Positions 7,772-38,837 of a stretch of 64,000 bases of DNA are shown here, one piece after another. How positions within the stretch are numbered: position 1 is the stretch's first letter; the number at the start of each line of letters is the position of its first letter. A program made the position numbers and the translations under genes. This stretch comes from a virus, in IMG/VR virus record IMGVR_UViG_3300021475_000010, positions 1-64,000 of that record. One strand, 5' to 3'. The notes beneath the pieces are model-generated. The model was not told the origin of the DNA. It did not search any database and saw only the letters and a list, made by a program, of their open reading frames with translations.

Positions 7772-8087
7772 GCGTTGCGGCACCAGTGGCCGGGAATCGA
7801 ACCGCGGTTACCATGCTGCTTCTCACTGGTACCTGGGGCCCCGCAGCAACGTGGAGAGGCCGGGGTCCGACCCCTGCCGGAAGCACGGCTCAGCGCGAGC
7901 CTCCCCTGGTGCAGCCGGTACGTTGCTCAGCTGCAGCTTCAACCTCTTGAGTTGTCAGACCCATTGCGCCGAGAAAGTCCAGGTGTCGAACAACAGACTC
8001 ACCTCCATCCGGGCTCGGCCCCGACGCTACGATTCTATGCACCTGCCGACCACCCCGACCGGGCTTGTACCGTCCGAAGGGGCGGAC
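7772..8087. other. Gene-free stretch with structured segments
   Basis: No convincing gene on either strand. On the minus strand 7780-7834 forms a 10-bp stem GGTACCAGTG/CACTGGTGCC enclosing a tRNA T-loop-like GGTTCGATTCC, too short to be a tRNA. The third copy of the GGTCGGGGTGG element lies at 8035-8060 (-). It may encode a small RNA, but that is unproven. Confidence 0.4.
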
Positions 8088-8143
8088 GTACTAACTAAAC
8101 GAAGTTAATCCTGCAATGATGATTTAGTTCGTTAAGTTAGTAG
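8088..8143. repeat. Inverted pair of the GTACTAACTTAACGAAC dispersed motif
   Basis: The left arm starts GTACTAACTAAACGAA. The right arm is the inverse complement, starting CTACTAACTTAACGAA; 18 of 21 arm positions pair around a 10-base loop. It lies between the ends of converging operons. Other copies lie at 22934 (+), 24276-24303 (-) and 44417 (+). It is AT-rich with no T run, so a protein-binding site is as likely as a terminator. Confidence 0.7.
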
Positions 8144-8155
8144 GGCCAGCCCTAA

Positions 8156-8392
8156 CTATGTATCCTTACGCCCGAGCAGGTCGCCGTTGACGCGGTCACG
8201 GATCGCGCCGTGTGCATGAGGGATGCCAAACGCCTTGCCGTTCTCCTTGGCCAGACCTTTTCGCTCACGATCTCCAAGGCCCTCATCCTCGGGCAGTGCA
8301 GCGTTCTTGCCAGCGCGGAGGCCATGCTTGTTGATAAGCCGATGCCGAACCTTATTGGCATTCGGGTCATCACCGCGACTTGATCTGGACAT
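8156..8392 (-). CDS. Hypothetical basic protein
   Basis: 78 residues, Lys/Arg/Asn-rich, starting MSRSSRGDDP. Last gene of the minus-strand group; its ATG overlaps the stop of the upstream gene. A competing reading in another frame (8152-8373) has poor composition. Possibly nucleic-acid-binding; not recognised. Confidence 0.65.
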   Translation of the reverse strand: MSRSSRGDDPNANKVRHRLINKHGLRAGKNAALPEDEGLGDRERKGLAKENGKAFGIPHAHGAIRDRVNGDLLGRKDT

Positions 8393-8631
8393 CAGTACTC
8401 CCTGCGGTTGTTCCTTGCTCGCCTACCGCCGGTAGCGGGCTGGCCCGCGTCACGCTTGGCGTTGTTGGTGTCCTGGCGTGCCTTCTTGGCTGCACTGGTG
8501 CGACCGCCACCGACCCTGGCCTTGATCGCACCTTGCGGGTTGTCGGCTTCCCACTGCTGGTGGTTGGCCGTGCGCCGGTCCATTTCGCCTGACGCTACGA
8601 GCGCGTGAAGCGCTCTGCTCAGCTTAGGCAC
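8392..8631 (-). CDS. Hypothetical basic protein
   Basis: 79 residues. GTG start with AAGGAG nine bases upstream. The N-terminus looks like a short helix-turn segment (KLSRALHALVASGEM); the rest is Arg/Lys/Gln-rich and probably disordered. DNA-binding is possible. Confidence 0.65.
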   Translation of the reverse strand: MPKLSRALHALVASGEMDRRTANHQQWEADNPQGAIKARVGGGRTSAAKKARQDTNNAKRDAGQPATGGRRARNNRREY

Positions 8632-8866
8632 TTGTCGTCACTCCTTGCCGAGGCTGCATGCCCTCGCTGCTAATGGTGCGAATGGTTGATATCTCACCTG
8701 AGTTCACACTGTCGAACTCGATGCCGAGCATGTTGCCGTGGCCATCCCAGACCAGGGTAACGCCGAACTTGCGGAACTGATGAGTGTGCTGCGGCTCAAC
8801 GCCTGGAGGTGTCGGCTCACGCTTTACGTAGACACGTCCGGTGTCCTTGTCGAGTATGACTTCCAC
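8624..8866 (-). CDS. Hypothetical protein
   Basis: 80 residues, beta-rich (MEVILDKDTGRVYVKRE, FGVTLVWDG), with a compact barrel-like pattern. It overlaps its neighbours by a few bases. Function unknown. Confidence 0.7.
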   Translation of the reverse strand: MEVILDKDTGRVYVKREPTPPGVEPQHTHQFRKFGVTLVWDGHGNMLGIEFDSVNSGEISTIRTISSEGMQPRQGVTTSA

Positions 8867-9141
8867 TAGCTGCCCCTTCTAGCGCGCATTGCACGTCCTG
8901 TTATGGCGATCCTGCCGCTGCCTATCTTGCCGTTGTTTTCGCGTTCAAGCGCATCTATCTCGCGCTGGCCAAGCCCAGCATTCTCTGGCCTAGCAGATGC
9001 ACGAGGTGACGCGCCACCTCGATGACGCGTCACCTTGCCGGCCTTGAGCTGCTTGTCAGCGTCCCTGTCGCGTTTGGCCTGTGCAGACTTACGGGCTTTC
9101 TCAGTCCGCGCTTGCTCTGCACGCCTTGCTGCACCAGACAT
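8866..9141 (-). CDS. Hypothetical basic protein
   Basis: 91 residues, rich in Arg, Lys and Ala. The first half is helical (ARRAEQARTEKARKSAQAKR). Likely to bind nucleic acid or a structural partner, but not recognised. Confidence 0.65.
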   Translation of the reverse strand: MSGAARRAEQARTEKARKSAQAKRDRDADKQLKAGKVTRHRGGASPRASARPENAGLGQREIDALERENNGKIGSGRIAITGRAMRARRGS

Positions 9142-9392: not shown

Positions 9393-10265
9393 CTAGGCAG
9401 CTGCACGCCTGGTCGACTCCGGGTGTGCACGCCTGTAGGCTCGGAGTCCATCGATGGGGATGCGACCGTTATGGCCAAGCTTGCCGCCTTGCTCGACCCA
9501 CCATGCAGCTATCTCCATGTTCTTGGTCGTCGGGCGTGAACGCCTACCTGCAGGCCGTGAGGACTTGGGCCGGGTACGCGTGCGAGAAACCGAATGCAGG
9601 CGCGGTCCGGGTGGGCCCTGCGGCTCTGGGCGAGGCTGAGCCGGCGGCTTGGGCTTCTCAGGCTTGGGCGGCTTGGGCGCTGGCTCGGGCATGAGCACGG
9701 GCTGAGCGTCTTCCTCCAGCTTGAAGCGTGCAAGGTTGCCCTCGGTGATGAAGTCCCTTCGTGCACGAAGACCATCGCGGTACTCCCTGAACGTGCCGCC
9801 GAGTAGGAGCCAGGTTGCAGGACCGTACCCGGACTTGGCCGAAGGGTGAACGTAGCCGTGCCTGATGAGCTGCTTCCGGTGAACCCAGCCTAGGTGCAGC
9901 TCGTACGCGAGGACGGCTGCGACGGGCGCGGTCGCCCAAACGATCCAGGCGTGTTCGTGCACCCAGAGCGCGGTGTCGCTGTGGAAGCTCTGCACGAATG
10001 CGCCGAGGGCTGCGAACGCGATAACGGTGGCTCGTGCAAGCCATCCGCTGAAACCCTTGCGCCGGTGCTTCAGGCCGATTCGTGCAGCGAAGAGCGCCAC
10101 GCCGTCGAACGCTGCAGACATACCGGCTGCGAAGATCGGCGGCACGCCCACCGCCCGAGCGATCGTGTAGAAACCGAGCCAGCTGATTGCGAGGATGGGA
10201 ACGAGGATGCACGCCCACAGGAACTCTCCGGTTAGTGCATCCAGCACTTTCTTAGCTCTGTCCAC
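9393..10265 (-). CDS. Membrane protein (DUF2637-like) with C-terminal Lsr2-like DNA-binding domain
   Basis: 290 residues. GTG at 10265 is chosen for GGAAGG seven bases upstream. The first 130 residues hold about four membrane segments in a pattern like DUF2637 proteins of actinobacteria and their plasmids (ISWLGFYTIARAVGVPP, then AAFDGVALF). Then come a cytosolic helical stretch, a Pro/Lys-rich linker with repeated PKPP, an Arg-rich stretch, and a final 40 residues (IAAWWVEQGG, then NGRIPIDGLRAYRRAHPE) like the Lsr2 C-terminal domain, whose RGRIP-type loop enters the minor groove. This suggests a protein that tethers DNA to the membrane or competes with host Lsr2; that is inference. The two domain assignments rest on pattern likeness only. 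Confidence 0.75.
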   Translation of the reverse strand: MDRAKKVLDALTGEFLWACILVPILAISWLGFYTIARAVGVPPIFAAGMSAAFDGVALFAARIGLKHRRKGFSGWLARATVIAFAALGAFVQSFHSDTALWVHEHAWIVWATAPVAAVLAYELHLGWVHRKQLIRHGYVHPSAKSGYGPATWLLLGGTFREYRDGLRARRDFITEGNLARFKLEEDAQPVLMPEPAPKPPKPEKPKPPAQPRPEPQGPPGPRLHSVSRTRTRPKSSRPAGRRSRPTTKNMEIAAWWVEQGGKLGHNGRIPIDGLRAYRRAHPESTRRAAA

Positions 10266-10372
10266 TTTTCTGCCTTCCGTCTGGACGAGCTTTAAGCGTA
10301 ACGCTCTCACGGCCGGAAGTCCTAACGTCTGGGAGAAAAGCCTGATCGGACCGGCGAGTCGCGATCCCAGCG

Positions 10373-10558
10373 TTACTGCACGCGAGGATCATCGAGGGTA
10401 GTCGACCGTAGTCGAGCCAGGGTAGCGGCGAGACATCGTGCAGCGTCGACCGGGTACTTGTGCCAGCAGACAGACGATGGGCCATAATCGTAGCAGAACA
10501 GGATCGGCTTGCCGCATAGCCTGCAGTTCCAGCCGAGGTCTAGTCCTTCGATGCACAT
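10373..10558 (-). CDS. Hypothetical Cys-rich protein
   Basis: 61 residues, starting MCIEGLDLGW. CRLCG and later Cys (FCYD, VCWHK) suggest a zinc site. GGAGG lies seven bases before the ATG. It overlaps the upstream gene by 19 bases. The following gap (10266-10372) shows only two or three TAGTCGA decamers at 10388-10412, like those at the left end. Confidence 0.65.
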   Translation of the reverse strand: MCIEGLDLGWNCRLCGKPILFCYDYGPSSVCWHKYPVDAARCLAATLARLRSTTLDDPRVQ

Positions 10559-10749
10559 TGCTCTGCCTCCGGCGGAATGCGTAGTTGATAGCAGTCGGCG
10601 TAGTAGAACTTGTCTGTTCCGACGGTCGGCTGATGTATCTCGATGATCGGCGGCGTTATCATGCCGAATGGGACATCGAGTACTGCCCACTTCGAGCTGT
10701 CCTGGGTGACGTAGACTACCCTGTTGCGCTCTGGGTCTGGCTGTGACAT
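10540..10749 (-). CDS. Hypothetical protein
   Basis: 69 residues, beta-rich (NRVVYVTQDSSKWAVLDV). AGGAAGGG lies before the ATG. It overlaps the HNH gene upstream by 34 bases. Not recognised. Confidence 0.65.
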   Translation of the reverse strand: MSQPDPERNRVVYVTQDSSKWAVLDVPFGMITPPIIEIHQPTVGTDKFYYADCYQLRIPPEAEQCASKD

Positions 10750-11069
10750 AACATACCCTTCCTGTATCCTGGATGTGGTTCCTGTGGACGCTTGCGGGTT
10801 CGCATCGTAGCTGCCTTGCCTGCCGCTCCCTGACGGCCTGATCGAGTGGCGTGGTGATTAACACATAGTCCGCGCAAGGCTTCTACACGATGGTCCCAAG
10901 GCTCGCCTATGTGATCCGCGTCGGTCGAGCGGTTAGGACAGCGCCCAGGTTCTGCCTGATCTTCTTTGAGGCTGCCCCACATGCACTGCGGATCACGTGT
11001 TAGCACAAACGCGCGTATCTGTCCCCAGTTTGGCGGCAGCGGGACTCTGCGCCAGCTACCGGTCGACAT
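10716..11069 (-). CDS. HNH endonuclease
   Basis: 117 residues. The core reads TRDPQCMW, CPNRSTDADHIGE, then LRGLCVNHHATRS: a treble-clef HNH motif with DH, an intervening turn and HH. The basic C-terminal tail is probably disordered. Small HNH proteins of this type are frequent in actinophages and nick or cut DNA. It sits beside a DUF559 nuclease and near the candidate origin. Confidence 0.88.
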   Translation of the reverse strand: MSTGSWRRVPLPPNWGQIRAFVLTRDPQCMWGSLKEDQAEPGRCPNRSTDADHIGEPWDHRVEALRGLCVNHHATRSGRQGAAGKAATMRTRKRPQEPHPGYRKGMLCHSQTQSATG

Positions 11070-11706: not shown

Positions 11707-11879
11707 GTACGAGCTTCCCCCTCCGACTTGCCAAGTGAGCTGCCGTAACCCATACAGCTCGTACCGGAAAGGGCGCTCGTACCGACCTCCCTTCGGGAGG
11801 TACGAGCTTCCGGCGTACGAGCATGGGTGTACGGGTCGTACGAGCATGGGTCCTCGGACCGTACGAGCTTCGTACGAGC
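11707..11879. repeat. Cluster of eight GTACGAGC repeats, candidate replication origin
   Basis: GTACGAGC occurs at 11707, 11800, 11815, 11838, 11861 and 11872 on the + strand, and inverted at 11757 and 11775. A CCTCCC-TTC-GGGAGG hairpin sits at about 11787-11800 between oppositely oriented copies. An AT-richer stretch (11620-11700) lies to one side, and the replication ATPase and primase-polymerase genes lie to the other. The layout resembles iterons plus an unwinding element. Spacing is irregular, so it is not CRISPR. Confidence 0.6.
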
Positions 11880-11895
11880 TTGGCAACATAGATTA

Positions 11896-13068
11896 TTAGG
11901 CATCTGGATTATAGTCCTTAGCATAGCGTAGCGGAGCTATGTTACTACTACCAGACTGGCCTGCCTTTACTAGACAGTTGTTCACTACGAGTATCTGAAT
12001 CGCGGCGCGGACGTGACGCGCTCCTGCGCCCTTGTATGCCTTCTCAATGTCGGCCTTGGCAGCGCCTGTCTTTCCGACTCGACGGTAGATGTCGAGCACC
12101 TTGTCGATAACGGCACGCGGAACGTCCTCGTATTCAGTGCCTTCGCGACGCGCATTGGCTCTATCCTTCACCACGCTTCCACGCTCTGGGTGCTTAACGT
12201 CGACGCGAAGACTGAATCCATTCTCCTTGTCTCCAGTCGACTTGACGACGAGAGTACCTGCATACATCACGGTAGGGTCGCGCTCGATGCGAGCGCACTC
12301 TGACTTGACGAAGCCAGGCCTGTCCTTAGTCAGGATGATCCTCGACCGACCCACAGCGCCACGGATGATAGGATCAATAGCCTCTAGCATATACGCCGCA
12401 CCAGTGACCCAGTTGAGCTTAGCGATTCCGCCCGCCGCGTAACGAGAACCATTGTTCCTAGCATCAGCATTCACCTTGGTGACATGGTCGGTTGTGATCA
12501 CACATCGGCCTCGCTTCAGCAGAGGCGCGACGAGCGCACGACGGAACATCACAGGTGAGTTCGGGTCGAATAGCTCCCAGCCGAACAGTCCGTATGCGGA
12601 CTGGAGCCCATTGAATATGACAAGGTCGCACCGATGCTCGACCGCATCCCACACCGAGTCCTGCGCTGCGTCGACATCCTCTGGAGTCGAGAACCTGAAC
12701 AGCCATTGGTCACAGACGGCATCCCTGTCGGCACCCATCTCCCTGAGACGGCTGGCGATGTCTATCTCGTCGCCTTCCTCAAAGTCGATCCAGCACACAG
12801 AGTGCCCGAAGTCTAGCGCTTGCGACACTGTCTCTGCGAGCAGCATGTCCTTGCCCGCCTCGGTCGCGCCATAGATAGCATTCTCCTTGCCGGCATAGAA
12901 CATGAACTGCTTGTCTTCGCGCATACCGAATACAGGCTCTTCACGCTTCTTCTTGCCGTCGAATGCAGCCTGCATAGAATGCAGCTTGGCTGGCTTACGC
13001 CGACGCCGCTTGGCACGCTCGATGATGGAGTCCTCGGCCTGGACGGCGTGCATCTTAGGGGGCGGCAT
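11896..13068 (-). CDS. RepA/RecA-like replicative ATPase
   Basis: 390 residues. The RecA-type core (AAA_25/RepA-like) spans about 55-270: Walker A region IYGATEAGKDMLL (66-78), CWIDFEEGDE (92-101), DLVIFNGLQSAYG (148-160) as the Walker B strand, and ITTDHVTK. The Arg/Lys-rich first 35 residues may bind DNA. The last 80 look like a winged helix. Two oddities: the Walker A Thr/Ser after Lys is Asp, and the Walker B Asp is Asn. It directly follows the primase-polymerase gene with touching ends and is probably the helicase or loader in the same initiation complex. Confidence 0.82.
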   Translation of the reverse strand: MPPPKMHAVQAEDSIIERAKRRRRKPAKLHSMQAAFDGKKKREEPVFGMREDKQFMFYAGKENAIYGATEAGKDMLLAETVSQALDFGHSVCWIDFEEGDEIDIASRLREMGADRDAVCDQWLFRFSTPEDVDAAQDSVWDAVEHRCDLVIFNGLQSAYGLFGWELFDPNSPVMFRRALVAPLLKRGRCVITTDHVTKVNADARNNGSRYAAGGIAKLNWVTGAAYMLEAIDPIIRGAVGRSRIILTKDRPGFVKSECARIERDPTVMYAGTLVVKSTGDKENGFSLRVDVKHPERGSVVKDRANARREGTEYEDVPRAVIDKVLDIYRRVGKTGAAKADIEKAYKGAGARHVRAAIQILVVNNCLVKAGQSGSSNIAPLRYAKDYNPDA

Positions 13069-14078
13069 CAGAAGCCCTCCAACTCATCGCAGACCTCATC
13101 CTCTGCGGCTACCTCACCCCCATACCTCGCCACCGCTCCTGTCACCAGCGAGCGCCACTCCTGCACCGCCTTGCCTTCCCCGCGTCGGCGCTGACCCGCG
13201 CCACGCTGACCGAGCTTATAGATGAACAGCTCTCGCATCGGAGCGAGTGCAGCGTTGATGCCGACATGCCCTTCGGCCGCAGCCTTTACCAGCTGAGCGA
13301 TGCCTAGCTTGGCCGCCTCATGCATCGAGCCGCCATTGCTCATGCCGTCCAGGACCCGCACGCCGATCGACTCAACATACCTGCACGGCTCGCCGACCCC
13401 ATAGTCGATCAGCCACTGGCGCGCGGAGCCATCGAAGCTGCTCTCATTCCATCGCTCGTTGTCTCCGCCGGCCAGCCCGGTGAGGTAGTCGCACCACTCA
13501 GTAGGCAGTACCGACATATGCTGCGGAGTAGGCAGCTTGTCGAATGCGCGCATTTCCTTGAACGTATCGACTTGCCTGTACCAGCGGTACTGCCCGCCAT
13601 TGCGATGTACCGACGGCGAGCAGATCACATACCGCTCATACCAGGTGATCATGTCGATGTCGACCGCAGCCTGAGACGGCCACGCACACGACACATAATC
13701 ACCCGGCACGATGAACAGCCGGATACCGCTCACGCCGTCCGTCCGCGAGGTCGATACGAACGTCCCAGGTAGCGGGCCCAGCTTATCCTGCAGATCGCCT
13801 AGCGAATCGCCGCCATACTTGTCGTCGTACTCGTCTACATCCAGGCCCACGATCCACCGCGGCAGCCTGAGAGCTATGTTGGATCGGGCATACCTGTTAG
13901 CCCACATCCTGTTCGTCGTGTCGTCAGGCCAGACACCTTCGCGCCCGTGATACCCGCGTACCATAGGCTGCTTGTCCCTGACTCCGCCCTTCCAGATGGG
14001 CAGCGCTTCAGGCCATCCTGCCTTCACGTACCTAAGCGCGGCTTGTCCGTACGGACCTGTCCTTTCTTCGAGGCTCAT
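13068..14078 (-). CDS. Bifunctional primase-polymerase (Prim-Pol, AEP-like)
   Basis: 336 residues. The N-terminal half matches the primase-polymerase domain: SNIALRLPRWIVGLDVDEYD gives the DxD metal pair (D80, D82), VSGIRLF the second motif, and VDIDMITWYERYVICSPSVH with GGQYRW the third. The His usually present in the second motif appears as Arg120. AAGGAG lies before the ATG. Expected to prime, and perhaps extend, DNA together with the adjacent ATPase. The C-terminal helical part (about 220-330) is of unknown use. Confidence 0.85.
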   Translation of the reverse strand: MSLEERTGPYGQAALRYVKAGWPEALPIWKGGVRDKQPMVRGYHGREGVWPDDTTNRMWANRYARSNIALRLPRWIVGLDVDEYDDKYGGDSLGDLQDKLGPLPGTFVSTSRTDGVSGIRLFIVPGDYVSCAWPSQAAVDIDMITWYERYVICSPSVHRNGGQYRWYRQVDTFKEMRAFDKLPTPQHMSVLPTEWCDYLTGLAGGDNERWNESSFDGSARQWLIDYGVGEPCRYVESIGVRVLDGMSNGGSMHEAAKLGIAQLVKAAAEGHVGINAALAPMRELFIYKLGQRGAGQRRRGEGKAVQEWRSLVTGAVARYGGEVAAEDEVCDELEGF

Positions 14079-16106: not shown

Positions 16107-16498
16107 TGCAACCTGACTGGCCGGCGTGGGCCATGGTCCTCGCCGTAGCACTTGTCCTCACCATAATCTTCTTCGTCCGACGCGAATACAGGAGGCGTCC
16201 CCTTGCTCCCCAAGAGGTTGGACTGGTGGATAGCACACCACCTAGGCGAGGACTTCTACACCTTCCTATGGTATCTCCATCTCGTACGCAACGAGCCCCC
16301 GCCGACGAAATGCCGTGGAACAGACCGCCAAGGAGATCCACCCGCATGAAGATATATCTCGTCACGGTCGCGGACCAGGCTGTCATCAATGCTCTCGACG
16401 CGGCCATCGAGAGTGATGAGCCGCTCTTCATCGGAGACACGACCAACCACGGCCCGATCGCTGAGATTCAGGAGTACGTGAATGTCGACAGCCCCTAG
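16106..16498 (+). CDS. Small membrane protein, or two genes in one open frame
   Basis: The frame runs 130 codons. Residues 1-30 (MQPDWPAWAM, then a membrane segment up to FFVRREYRR) look real. Residues 31-80 are Arg/Pro/Ser-rich, typical of a shadow frame, and overlap a better gene at 16203-16349. Residues 81-130 (MKIYLVTVAD onward) form a compact alpha/beta protein that could start independently at ATG 16346, with AAGGAG upstream. I favour at least two separate products here. Confidence 0.55.
   Translation: MQPDWPAWAMVLAVALVLTIIFFVRREYRRRPLAPQEVGLVDSTPPRRGLLHLPMVSPSRTQRAPADEMPWNRPPRRSTRMKIYLVTVADQAVINALDAAIESDEPLFIGDTTNHGPIAEIQEYVNVDSP
16203..16349 (+). CDS. Hypothetical small protein with TTG start
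   Basis: 48 residues with a convincing composition: RLDWWIAHHLGEDFYTFLWY, then HLVRNEPPP. TTG has AGGAGG seven bases upstream. It overlaps the 16106 frame almost completely and its TGA overlaps ATG 16346. A +1 frameshift from the membrane segment upstream is another possible reading. Confidence 0.5.
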   Translation: MLPKRLDWWIAHHLGEDFYTFLWYLHLVRNEPPPTKCRGTDRQGDPPA

Positions 16499-17684
16499 GG
16501 CGGGCGTCCTGCTCGACCGCGACGGCACGATCATTGTCGACTATCACTACGTCGGCCACATCGAGCGTGTCCAGTTCATCCCAGGCGCCATCGAGGCAAT
16601 TAGGCGCTTCAACGAGGCAGGCATCCCCGTCGCCATTGTCACGAACCAAGGCGGCGTAGCTCGCGGCTTCTATCCAGAAGACAATGTCATGGAGGTTCAT
16701 AGCTACATCCAGCGCATACTAGCGCAGCAGAACGCCTGGATCGACCTGTTCCTGTACAGTCCGTACCACCCGGACGCTAACACGGACAAGTACAGGGGCA
16801 ACGACATCTGGCACAAGCCGAACGCTGGTATGGCACGCGCAGCAGCGCGGAGTCTCAGCCTCGACCTCACGCAATGCTTCGTCGTTGGAGACCGGCCTAC
16901 CGATGTCGAGATGGCGCGCCGGATCGGAGCCACGGCAATCTACCTCGGCGCGGAGCCTATACCGTTCTACCACTACGCTAACGAACAGACCGTATCATTC
17001 AAATCACTAGGTGACGCAGCAACCTACATCATCGAGAGGATCACGGGTATGTCTCACAGCGAGTTCCCGACCATGCGGTACTCAGGTGTCATCAGCTTCT
17101 TCCAGCACTACTCCGACGAGATCACCTCCACGCTCAGCCAGGTCAACAAGTTCGAGGTCGAGCTGGCAGTCGAGCACCTGTACAAGGCGTACAGCGATGG
17201 CTCCGCAGTCTGGGTCGCCGGCAACGGCGGAGCTGCAGCTATCGCGGACCACATGGCGACCGATCACGCCAAGCACATGGCCGCGACCGACACGCTGTTC
17301 CATAACGTGCACAGCCTTGCGGCGAACAACGTACTCTCCACGGCACTCGCCAACGACATCGGCTATGACGCCGTGTTCTCTTGGCAGCTCGAACAGTTCG
17401 GCGTCAAGGGTGACGTGTTCGTCGTGTTCTCCGTATCCGGCGAGAGCAAGAACATCATCCGCGGCCTCCAGGCAGCCAAAGAGCTAGGCATGGTCTCCAT
17501 CGCCATCGTCGGCGGCGAGGCCGTCACCATCAAGGACGCGAACCTGGCCAACGTAACCATCACCATCCCGGCAACGAACTACGGCGTGGTCGAGGATGTC
17601 ATGTCGATCATCCAGCACGCCCTCGCTCAGTACATCAGACAGACACAGATGACCGACAAGCAGATCCAGTCCGCTAGGTTCTAG
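16482..17684 (+). CDS. GmhB-GmhA-like fusion: HAD phosphatase plus SIS sugar isomerase
   Basis: 400 residues, two domains. The first (about 7-155) is a GmhB-type HAD phosphatase: LLDRDGTI (D12, D14), VTNQGG, HKPNAGM and GDRPTDVEMA. It lacks the Cys-rich zinc loop of classical GmhB. The second (about 195-385) is an SIS domain like GmhA sedoheptulose-7-phosphate isomerase: AGNGGAAAIADH, SLAANN, ANDIGYD and FSVSGESKN. In heptose biosynthesis GmhA and GmhB act at separate steps of the same pathway. A fused phage copy suggests production of a heptose-phosphate or similar sugar for DNA, host glycan or virion modification. No kinase (HldE-like) is seen in the window. Confidence 0.88.
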   Translation: MSTAPRAGVLLDRDGTIIVDYHYVGHIERVQFIPGAIEAIRRFNEAGIPVAIVTNQGGVARGFYPEDNVMEVHSYIQRILAQQNAWIDLFLYSPYHPDANTDKYRGNDIWHKPNAGMARAAARSLSLDLTQCFVVGDRPTDVEMARRIGATAIYLGAEPIPFYHYANEQTVSFKSLGDAATYIIERITGMSHSEFPTMRYSGVISFFQHYSDEITSTLSQVNKFEVELAVEHLYKAYSDGSAVWVAGNGGAAAIADHMATDHAKHMAATDTLFHNVHSLAANNVLSTALANDIGYDAVFSWQLEQFGVKGDVFVVFSVSGESKNIIRGLQAAKELGMVSIAIVGGEAVTIKDANLANVTITIPATNYGVVEDVMSIIQHALAQYIRQTQMTDKQIQSARF

Positions 17685-35651: not shown

Positions 35652-38600
35652 ATGCCAAAGGCAGTAAGTCTACACCACCATACGACGTACAGTTTCCTGG
35701 ACGGGCACGGTACGCCGGAGCAACACCTGCAGCGAGCAGCCGACCTCGGCTACACGCACCTCGCGTTTACCGAGCACGGCAATACTTCGTCACACTTCCG
35801 CGCGGAGAAAGCCGCCAAGAAGATTGGGGCCGTCACACCCATCTTCGGTATCGAGGGCTACACTGCGCCCGACGACGAGATGGATCGGCAGACCAAGTAC
35901 CACCTCACTATGCTGGCGATGAACCAGCGCGGGTATCGCAACCTGAACCTCTCTGTCACGCGGAGCTTCAAGCAGCACAAGTGGCACCCGACGATAACAG
36001 GCTCGGACCTGGTAGAGTTCAATGACGGGCTCATCGTCCTGTCCGGTTGCTCCGGTAGCCGCCTCGCGTGCGAGATGATCGGCGGCAAGGGTATCCCCGC
36101 GCCAGAGACTACGAAACAAAAATGGGCAGCGTTTGAGAAATGCGAAGGCATCGCGACCAGGTTCGCTAAGTCGTTCAACGACGGCCGGTTCTACATCGAG
36201 GTACAGGCGTTCCCAGAGCTAGAGTCGACGCGCAAGATCAACACGGCGTACGCGAAGCTGAGCAAGGTTACCGGCATACCGCTCGCAATGACTCTCGACT
36301 GCCACTACGTACTCCCGACCGATAACGAGATGCAGGTTATCCTGCACGCCTGCGGTCCGCAAGGCCGAGGCATGGCTACCGCCGATGAGATGCTGCGACG
36401 CTGGAACTACGACGTACTGCTCACGCTGCCGACATCTGATAAGATAATCGTCAAGAAGCTAATCGACACCGGCATTCCGCGTGAACAGGCATGGGAAGCC
36501 GTCATGAACACGGCCGACATCGCCGCTCGCTGTAACGTTACACTGCCCAAGGCTGAGCGACTCCAGTACCCCTGCCCGGACGGATGGACAGCTGAGGAGC
36601 TGATCTGGGAATGGCTGCGCGAAGGGTGGCGCTACCGCAACATCGGTAACCGCTCGCGTAAGGACCAGGACTGGTTCGCTGAGCGAGTCCAGTACGAGAT
36701 GAAGCATATCACTGAGAAAGACTTCATCGACTTCTTCCTGGCCACCGCGGACGTGATCCGCTGGTGTAAGCACGACGGTAACGGCGTCCCCATTCCGGTC
36801 GGACCCGGCCGAGGTAGCGCGGCCGCATCCGTTGTATGCTGGCTGCTGGAGATTACCGAGATTGACCCGGCCCGGTATCCGGGCATGATCTTCGAGCGGT
36901 TCATCGACACGACGCGAGTCGACCCGCCCGACATTGACCTGGACTTCGCCGACGACCGCCGTCATGAAGTGCGCGAGTACCTGGAGAGGAAATATGGTGT
37001 TGACTGTGTGGGCACTATTGCTAACTTCATCCGCTATCGAGGCAAGAACGCTCTGGTCGATGTCGCTAGGGTGCATAGCGTACCAAAGGCTGCCAAGGAT
37101 GTCGTCTCCAACCTCATCATCGAGAGGTCTGGTGGTGATTCACGGTTCGATGCTTCCCTGGCGGATACGGCCGAGATGTTCCCTAACGCTAAGGCAATCT
37201 TCGATGCCTTCCCTGCGCTGTGGCTGGCTACAAGACTCGAAGGCGGCGTGCGCGGAATGTCCGTTCATGCGGCCGGACTGGTTGTCGCCAACTCGCCGCT
37301 CACAGATGTATGCGCCGTATATGAACGGGACGGACGACGAGTCCTAAGCATTGACAAGTATGACGCCGAGTACGCGGGCATGCTCAAGATGGACTTCCTT
37401 GGGCTGACTACCATGGGCATGATCGCCCGGTGCCTGGAGCTGACCGGCCTGACGCTGAAGGACCTCTATGCGATTCCAGATGACGATCCAGATACGCTCC
37501 GTGTATTTCAGCTCAATGATGTGGTCGGGATATTTCAGTTTGCGGGTCGCGCTACGAGGATTGTCTGTCGGGACGTACATCCAGACAACTTCGATGAAGT
37601 GGCTGCTGTCAATGCGCTATCACGACCAGGACCGCTGTTTTCGGGTACGACTGCGACGTATTGCGATGTCAAGCATAAGCGGGAAAAGGCTGTACGTTAC
37701 CATCCCCTGGTTGACGAGATCACATCAAATACCTTCGGCCAGATCATATACCAGGAACAAATCCTGAAGATACTTCAGGTGATAGGCGGCTTCGAGTGGA
37801 CGGACCTCAATGAGATTCGGCGCATCATTGCGAAGAAGATTGGCCAGGCTGCGTTCCAAGTCTCAATGCAGAACTTCATCGACGGCGCAAAGAGACTGCA
37901 TGGCATGGACGCTAAAACTGCTGAGGAAGTATGGAAGCATCTAGTCACGTCGGGGACATACGCATTTAACATTGCCCACGCCGTCAGCTACTCAGTCGTG
38001 GCATGGTGGTGTGCCTACCTCAAGACGCACTACCCTGTCGAGTTCTACGCCTCGTCTCTCTCCAAGGCCGAGCCCGGCAAGGAAACTGAGTTCAAGCTGA
38101 TGCGCGACGCAGTGGCCCATGGCGTCCCAGTCCGCGCGCCGAACTGGAACAGCGGCCCAACCTGGCAGCCTGCCCAGGGCAAGAACGGACCCTACCTTAC
38201 CGCTGGCCTAACCGTAGTGCCCGGTATCGCAGACAAGACCGCGGCCTCCATCCTCAACGCGCGGAAGGAACAGCCCTTCACCGGATGGGCCGACATGATC
38301 CGCGCGCACGGCGTCGGGCCCAAGACTGTCGAGTCGATGAAGCAGTTCGCGGATGACGATGACCCGTTCGGGCTAGAGCGAGCGCGGAGGATCATTGATA
38401 AGGTCACTGCCGCTATAATCGAGAAAGAACTGAAGGCTCCGATCCCAACTCACAACGGCGACGACGTATCGAAGATCATACCGCCGAAGTGGATGACGCA
38501 TAACAAGGGCGAGACGGTCGTATATGTCGGTATCGTCAAGGGCCGGTACTATCAGGACATCGTAGAGAACATCCATTCGAGGACAGGCAAGGACGTTGAT

Positions 38601-38837
38601 GAGATTCTAGAAACGCTCAAGGACAAGAACCTGCGCAAGTATTGCACGCTCCAGTGCTACGACGATAGCATCGAGGAAGTCTACGGCCGTATCACTCGGT
38701 ACGCATTCCCCAAGCTGAGGTCGCTACTGGAGCTAATCGAGGTCGGTCATGATGTCGTGGTCATGCGTGGCCGCAAGACTCCATTCTTCGGCAATAGTAT
38801 CGCGATAGATGATCTGTGGGTAGTCGACCCGGACTAG
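35652..38837 (+). CDS. dnaE: DNA polymerase III alpha-type replicative polymerase (DnaE-like)
   Basis: 1061 residues. The PHP domain starts at once (LHHHTTYSFLDG, FTEHGNTS, FGIEGYTA). The C-family polymerase core has GPGRGSAAAS (about 383-392) and the catalytic PDIDLDFADDRRHEVREY (about 426-443). YQEQILKILQ and HAVSYSVVAWWCAYLKTHYP are typical of DnaE. The later region includes a helix-hairpin-helix (FTGWADMIRAHGVGPKTVES). About 100 residues shorter than E. coli DnaE. It is the phage's main replicase and a single-gene unit between two promoters. Confidence 0.95.
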   Translation: MPKAVSLHHHTTYSFLDGHGTPEQHLQRAADLGYTHLAFTEHGNTSSHFRAEKAAKKIGAVTPIFGIEGYTAPDDEMDRQTKYHLTMLAMNQRGYRNLNLSVTRSFKQHKWHPTITGSDLVEFNDGLIVLSGCSGSRLACEMIGGKGIPAPETTKQKWAAFEKCEGIATRFAKSFNDGRFYIEVQAFPELESTRKINTAYAKLSKVTGIPLAMTLDCHYVLPTDNEMQVILHACGPQGRGMATADEMLRRWNYDVLLTLPTSDKIIVKKLIDTGIPREQAWEAVMNTADIAARCNVTLPKAERLQYPCPDGWTAEELIWEWLREGWRYRNIGNRSRKDQDWFAERVQYEMKHITEKDFIDFFLATADVIRWCKHDGNGVPIPVGPGRGSAAASVVCWLLEITEIDPARYPGMIFERFIDTTRVDPPDIDLDFADDRRHEVREYLERKYGVDCVGTIANFIRYRGKNALVDVARVHSVPKAAKDVVSNLIIERSGGDSRFDASLADTAEMFPNAKAIFDAFPALWLATRLEGGVRGMSVHAAGLVVANSPLTDVCAVYERDGRRVLSIDKYDAEYAGMLKMDFLGLTTMGMIARCLELTGLTLKDLYAIPDDDPDTLRVFQLNDVVGIFQFAGRATRIVCRDVHPDNFDEVAAVNALSRPGPLFSGTTATYCDVKHKREKAVRYHPLVDEITSNTFGQIIYQEQILKILQVIGGFEWTDLNEIRRIIAKKIGQAAFQVSMQNFIDGAKRLHGMDAKTAEEVWKHLVTSGTYAFNIAHAVSYSVVAWWCAYLKTHYPVEFYASSLSKAEPGKETEFKLMRDAVAHGVPVRAPNWNSGPTWQPAQGKNGPYLTAGLTVVPGIADKTAASILNARKEQPFTGWADMIRAHGVGPKTVESMKQFADDDDPFGLERARRIIDKVTAAIIEKELKAPIPTHNGDDVSKIIPPKWMTHNKGETVVYVGIVKGRYYQDIVENIHSRTGKDVDEILETLKDKNLRKYCTLQCYDDSIEEVYGRITRYAFPKLRSLLELIEVGHDVVVMRGRKTPFFGNSIAIDDLWVVDPD

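Follow-up and report, generated by a model that had tools for sequence, protein, structure and literature searches.

The gene at positions 9,393–10,265 (minus strand) raises the question of what use a phage would make of a membrane protein that ends in the DNA-binding domain of the host silencing protein Lsr2. The window, meaning the whole stretch of 64,000 nucleotides that was analysed, comes from an uncultivated virus, and pieces of the record beyond the window were read along with it. The host is probably an actinobacterium, judging by the Lsr2-type tail and by the relatives of the gene. The product has 290 amino acids and consists of four membrane helices of the DUF2637 family, a linker rich in Pro and Arg, and an Lsr2-type DNA-binding domain at the C-terminus. 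Translation is taken to start at a GTG at 10,265 and to end at the stop codon at 9,393–9,395, as read from the ORF list, a relative and conservation of the DNA. The mechanically called ORF begins further upstream, at a GTG at 10,310, but the relative in L028 (68% identical) has no in-frame start codon before the equivalent of 10,265 and the DNA around that GTG is conserved between the two; 10,265 is therefore the better start, and the longer form was rejected. No Rfam match and no tRNA gene were found, and a model of the full-length protein (mean pLDDT 68) gave no meaningful match in the PDB.

The preliminary description of this locus had recognised four membrane segments of DUF2637 style, which was borne out. 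Hydropathy places four hydrophobic segments at residues of about 15–33, 43–61, 76–94 and 108–126 of the 290-residue form, giving a module at 9,876–10,229 (minus strand), and the positive-inside rule predicts both ends of the protein to be cytoplasmic. The Pfam score of the window protein for DUF2637 (PF10935) is 21.8 bits, just under the cut-off of 22.8, which the relatives in L028 and L030 exceed, and the PHROGs family phrog_10376 matches the module at 3.5e-18. When a profile of ten phage sequences was compared with one of seven plasmid-borne DUF2637-type proteins, the match had a probability of 99.6% (E 6e-25) and the reversed control one of 0.2%, and for this reason the window module is counted as a member of the family. 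A comparison with the SpdB family of plasmid pIJ101 using hhalign gave 48% (E 2e-4; reversed 1.3%), a match that is suggestive only, and pIJ101 SpdB itself has no Pfam hit to DUF2637. No description of a function for DUF2637 was found in the literature searched.

The long Pro-rich linker that had been noted earlier spans residues of about 173–247 (9,525–9,749, minus strand); it is rich in Pro, Arg and Lys and is mostly of low confidence in the structural model. After it comes a tail of about 43 residues (9,396–9,524, minus strand), containing WWVEQGGKLGHNGRIPIDGLRAY, for which several lines of evidence agree on an Lsr2-type identity. As a single sequence the tail scores about 15–16.1 bits against Pfam Lsr2_DNA-bd (PF23359), for which the cut-off is 26.9. 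Both domains of the window protein thus fall below their single-sequence Pfam cut-offs, and their identity was settled through relatives and independent HMMs; in L030 both domains are above the Pfam cut-offs (29.0 and 23.3 bits). An Lsr2 HMM was built from the C-domains of three ordinary Lsr2 proteins (from a Rhodococcus plasmid, phage Muntaha and phage Thibault), and when run against 1,240 ORFs from all six frames of the window it picked out the ORF of this gene alone as a clear hit, at 28.1 bits (E 7e-8); no other real ORF exceeded 7.7 bits, and among 12,400 shuffled ORFs the highest score was 12.3 bits. In addition, a profile of six tails matches the solved C-domain of Mycobacterium tuberculosis Lsr2 (2kng, 6qkp, 6qkq) at E 2e-10 to 4e-10. 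The structural comparison with Lsr2 that had been proposed as a check points the same way: AlphaFold2, run on the tail without templates, gave a model (mean pLDDT 81, about 91 over the core) for which a Foldseek search of 350,542 chains placed 6qkp first and 2kng second, with weak E-values (0.24 and 1.2) that are attributable to the small size of the domain, whilst VIA-align of the tail with Lsr2 gave a Z of 4.0, modest support at most. A BLAST match of the tail in a Thermobifida phage was set aside, as it is annotated as no membrane fusion.

The tail is, judging by its residues, an Lsr2-type domain with an altered loop rather than a canonical Lsr2 domain. Where Lsr2 has R-G-R, the AT-hook-like loop of the window protein reads N-G-R-I-P (residues 266–270), its N-G-R as already given in the preliminary description, and in the relatives the corresponding residues are RDR (L028), RGR (L010 only), HGR (L011 and L012) and FAR (L030). 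The last Arg is invariant in all six tails, and even at about 33% identity the tail keeps its length and position. The VGR loop of Ler inserts its last Arg alone (PMC4466236), and that Arg is essential (PMC3219716), which makes DNA binding by the NGR tail plausible by analogy. Binding by the window tail and its relatives may nevertheless be weaker or changed, since Asn replaces the first Arg of RGR in the window protein and two relatives have R-D-R or F-A-R. No match to the N-terminal oligomerisation domain of Lsr2 was found in the window protein with Pfam or PHROGs, and the membrane module occupies the place of that domain.

Relatives of the membrane part were found in seven uncultivated phage contigs, four of them (L010–L013) by scans of uncultivated virus contigs and three more (L028, L030 and L034) with a better alignment. 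Five of these relatives have Lsr2-like tails (L010, L011, L012, L028 and L030), the one in L013 is cut by the end of the contig, and the one in L034 (7,980–8,834) joins the same membrane module to a Cys-rich, zinc-finger-like tail. In PHROGs, the latter tail also has a weak match to parts of HNH endonuclease families. The contigs of L010, L030 and L034 have virion and polymerase genes in common with the window, and they therefore belong to one broad phage lineage; no tyrosine integrase was found by Pfam in the window record or in three relatives. Among named phages, the membrane module was found in 90 Streptomyces phage records at about 31% identity over the membrane part only, and the examples that were translated share a different tail, which by our own reading is HTH-like. 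In each of these 90 records less than 80% of the query is covered, the listed matches reach no further than about residue 204, and no Lsr2 tail was found in a named phage. A structure search also returned gp25 of phage phiC31 and a DUF2637 protein of a Gordonia phage. The product of phiC31 gene 25 (L066, 36,291–37,007), for which the record states no function, consists of membrane segments followed by a linker rich in Pro and Glu and by an HTH-like end, and Pfam makes no DUF2637 call for it. No relative turned up when bacterial genomes were scanned with peptide patterns, a method too insensitive to exclude them. One membrane module thus carries three kinds of tail, namely Lsr2 (the window and five contigs), HTH-like (Streptomyces phages) and zinc-finger-like (L034), which suggests that what stays constant is the tethering of a DNA-binding-like domain of one kind or another.

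The family is also linked to DNA translocases. In L029 (which is the same contig as L010), L031, L032 and L034, all from tailed-phage contigs, the next gene encodes an FtsK/TraB-like membrane ATPase (L029, 8,822–10,492; L031, 8,873–10,537; L032, 2,642–4,303; L034, 8,926–10,578), which overlaps the stop codon of the membrane protein gene in the first three (TAATG or TGATG) and begins about 90 bp further on in L034. The ATPase product, of 550 amino acids, has N-terminal membrane segments, a Walker A core of GTGKS and a Walker B motif of the form hhhDE. Against FtsK_SpoIIIE, with its cut-off of 24 bits, two copies reach about 19 bits, and one copy passes in a search of the whole record (24.3). 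Profile comparison links the phage ATPase family to an ATPase of Streptomyces linear plasmids (99.8%, E 3e-30) and to that of Planobispora pPR2 (98.0%), but to pIJ101 TraB only suggestively (41.8%; reversed 0.5%). On these actinobacterial plasmids the ATPase gene adjoins a DUF2637 gene or is one small gene away from it; one ATPase-bearing plasmid has no annotated DUF2637 gene in the stretch that was read. The ATPases had no match among named phages, and no FtsK-like ATPase was detectable in the window record, in the L028 and L030 contigs (both partial) or in phage NootNoot. The putative replication ATPase of the window was considered as an FtsK-like partner and rejected (hhalign 0.1%).

In the window, the gene belongs to a replication cluster and shares its strand with a gene for a bifunctional primase/polymerase (Prim-Pol; 13,068–14,078, minus strand; Pfam 62.2 bits, PHROG 1.5e-33) and one for a putative replication ATPase (11,896–13,068, minus strand) that overlaps the end of the Prim-Pol gene. 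This ATPase has a Walker-A-like motif that was read by eye, no significant Pfam match and a weak PHROG match to DNA repair, and its role is probably in replication. Just past the ATPase gene, in a non-coding gap between it and a DUF559 gene and beside an AT-rich stretch, there are eight copies of GTACGAGC (six on the plus and two on the minus strand) within 173 bp (11,707–11,879), when 3.4 would be expected in the whole window. As this iteron-like array adjoins replication genes, it suggests a candidate replication origin, 1.4 kb from the gene under study; the same array was not found in the L028 or L030 loci. Upstream of the gene there is an HNH endonuclease gene (10,716–11,069, minus strand), a neighbour that is conserved in L028, and downstream there are two small genes of 80 and 91 amino acids (8,624–9,141, minus strand), one or both of which have homologues downstream in L028 and L030.

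Other features of the window were observed in passing. Long non-coding arrays with a 10-bp period (1–760 and 1,370–1,840) flank a gene at 811–1,230, their units ending in TCGA and many of them containing TAGTCGA or CTAGGGTCGA; the homologue of this gene in L030 is flanked by similar arrays (about 7,930–8,160 and 8,735–8,845), and the L028 contig is also rich in copies of the repeat. Such arrays would suit binding sites that all lie on the same side of the helix. A protein encoded at 16,482–17,684 combines HAD phosphatase and SIS (sugar isomerase) domains, as in heptose or sugar-nucleotide pathways, which is unexpected in a phage. At 35,652–38,837 a bacterial-type DNA polymerase III alpha subunit is encoded in addition to the Prim-Pol, which suggests a partly self-supplied replisome.

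The reading that we favour, and to which we give about even chances, is that the protein is an SpdB-like membrane adaptor that anchors phage DNA at the membrane. The DUF2637 module would sit in the cytoplasmic membrane and probably self-associate, whilst the flexible linker would let the Lsr2-type tail reach DNA in the cytoplasm and hold it through the minor groove with little sequence specificity. In this way replicating or newly entered phage DNA, and perhaps also the replication proteins encoded beside the gene, would be fastened to the membrane. Since the tail can be exchanged, the protein probably serves to keep DNA at the membrane and not to imitate Lsr2 in particular. The predicted cytoplasmic position of the tail, the place of the gene within a replication cluster (Prim-Pol, putative ATPase) near an iteron-like array, and the linkage of the module family to translocases in relatives and plasmids are all consistent with anchoring, which of the three roles offered in the preliminary description fits best. 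The absence of a detectable FtsK-like partner from the window record speaks against this reading; for the window phage anchoring is favoured, since the pump is absent but the gene stands among replication genes.

The protein could instead be an SpdB-like part of a DNA translocation machine that, together with the FtsK/TraB-like ATPase, moves phage DNA across the membrane or across hyphal cross-walls, as Streptomyces plasmids do. The direct coupling of the two genes in four relatives, the same pairing on plasmids and the weak match of the module to pIJ101 SpdB agree with this, as does the fact that Prim-Pol and FtsK-type Tra proteins are standard modules of actinobacterial conjugative elements (PMC3218068). 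However, the window record, NootNoot and the partial L028 and L030 contigs lack such an ATPase, and the genomes carry virion genes and have no need of conjugation; for the window protein we consider translocation, which would involve an unseen partner, possible but rather unlikely. A wider version, in which a tailed-phage lineage took over a plasmid-type module for replication and spread (Prim-Pol, a DUF2637 adaptor with an exchangeable tail and an FtsK/TraB-like pump), so that DNA passes between the compartments of a mycelial host without virions, seems to us quite improbable.

Competition with host Lsr2, another of the roles put forward earlier, would have the tail occupy Lsr2 sites or draw phage DNA away from Lsr2 silencing, which accords with a true Lsr2-type DNA-binding domain by HMM and with the commonness of phage-encoded Lsr2 proteins, for which interference with silencing has been proposed (PMC8612146). 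It is weakened, and in our view unlikely, because the oligomerisation domain is absent, related phages have non-Lsr2 tails at the same place and the N-G-R loop may bind less well. Sensing of incoming DNA, the third role, found no support of its own. The protein might also regulate transcription from phage promoters as a single membrane-bound component of CadC type, perhaps by way of the 10-bp repeats that precede its gene: a short run (10,397–10,428, about 130–160 bp upstream) contains TAGTCGA twice, TAGTCGA at 10-bp spacing is seen upstream of the gene both in the window (10,399–10,415) and in L028 (1,227–1,243), and some relatives have HTH-like tails. Yet Lsr2-type domains bind with little sequence specificity, the outer loops are short and form no sensory outer domain, and far larger arrays of the repeat lie elsewhere, all of which makes such a regulator quite improbable. 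Finally, the high variability of the AT-hook-like loop could mean that the tail is a decayed Lsr2 relic and that the protein works through its membrane part alone, but the retention of the last Arg throughout, the example of Ler, in which the last Arg alone is inserted and is essential, and the conserved length and position of the tail make this very unlikely.

In phi29, a protein-primed phage of Bacillus, the integral membrane protein p16.7 binds DNA and serves to organise replication at the membrane (PMC4974454); its likeness to the window protein is one of proposed function, with no homology claimed. SpdB2 of plasmid pSVH1 is likewise integral to the membrane and binds DNA non-specifically, oligomerises and interacts with TraB (PMC4170104); like SpdB of pIJ101 it accompanies an FtsK-type translocase, a neighbour that the four relatives have and the window record lacks. 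The comparison with the window protein is one of described function, and the profile match, a suggestive one, is to the pIJ101 SpdB family. SpdB2 and p16.7 show that translocation and replication versions of holding DNA at the membrane both exist. Closer in architecture are the DUF2637 proteins of Streptomyces and other actinobacterial plasmids, which have the membrane module, a long variable linker and a small C-terminal domain, although in those examined this end is mostly HTH-like and other than Lsr2. The same plan of membrane segments, a charged or Pro-rich linker and a DNA-binding-like tail is seen in the phrog_10376 proteins of Streptomyces phages (NootNoot, Mildred21 and others) and in phiC31 gp25, the former differing from the window protein in their HTH-like tail and in an identity confined to the membrane part, and gp25, likewise HTH-tailed, sharing structural resemblance only. 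The earlier remark that no described phage protein of this architecture was known has to be qualified: the general plan occurs in Streptomyces phages, phiC31 among them, but with HTH-like tails, and no named phage with the Lsr2 tail was found.

Compared with mycobacterial Lsr2 and phage Lsr2-like proteins, the window protein lacks the N-terminal oligomerisation domain, has N-G-R for R-G-R and is predicted to be membrane-bound. The Ku-Lsr2 fusions of the cluster J mycobacteriophages Omega and Corndog are a precedent for an Lsr2 DNA-binding tail on another phage protein, but they have a Ku domain and no membrane module, and they retain RGR (PMC8612146). Phage proteins of other kinds that bear an Lsr2 tail, and DUF2637-type proteins of named phages that end differently, are therefore already known; no description of a DUF2637-Lsr2 fusion was found in the literature searched.

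These findings link DUF2637, a domain of undescribed function on Streptomyces plasmids and phages, to the handling of DNA at the membrane, through an interchangeable DNA-binding-like tail and a frequent translocase neighbour. As phiC31 gp25 has the same layout, the question can be tested in a standard laboratory phage. If anchoring is true, the protein would be an actinophage counterpart of phi29 p16.7, and if translocation is true, it would represent a new way for a phage to spread.
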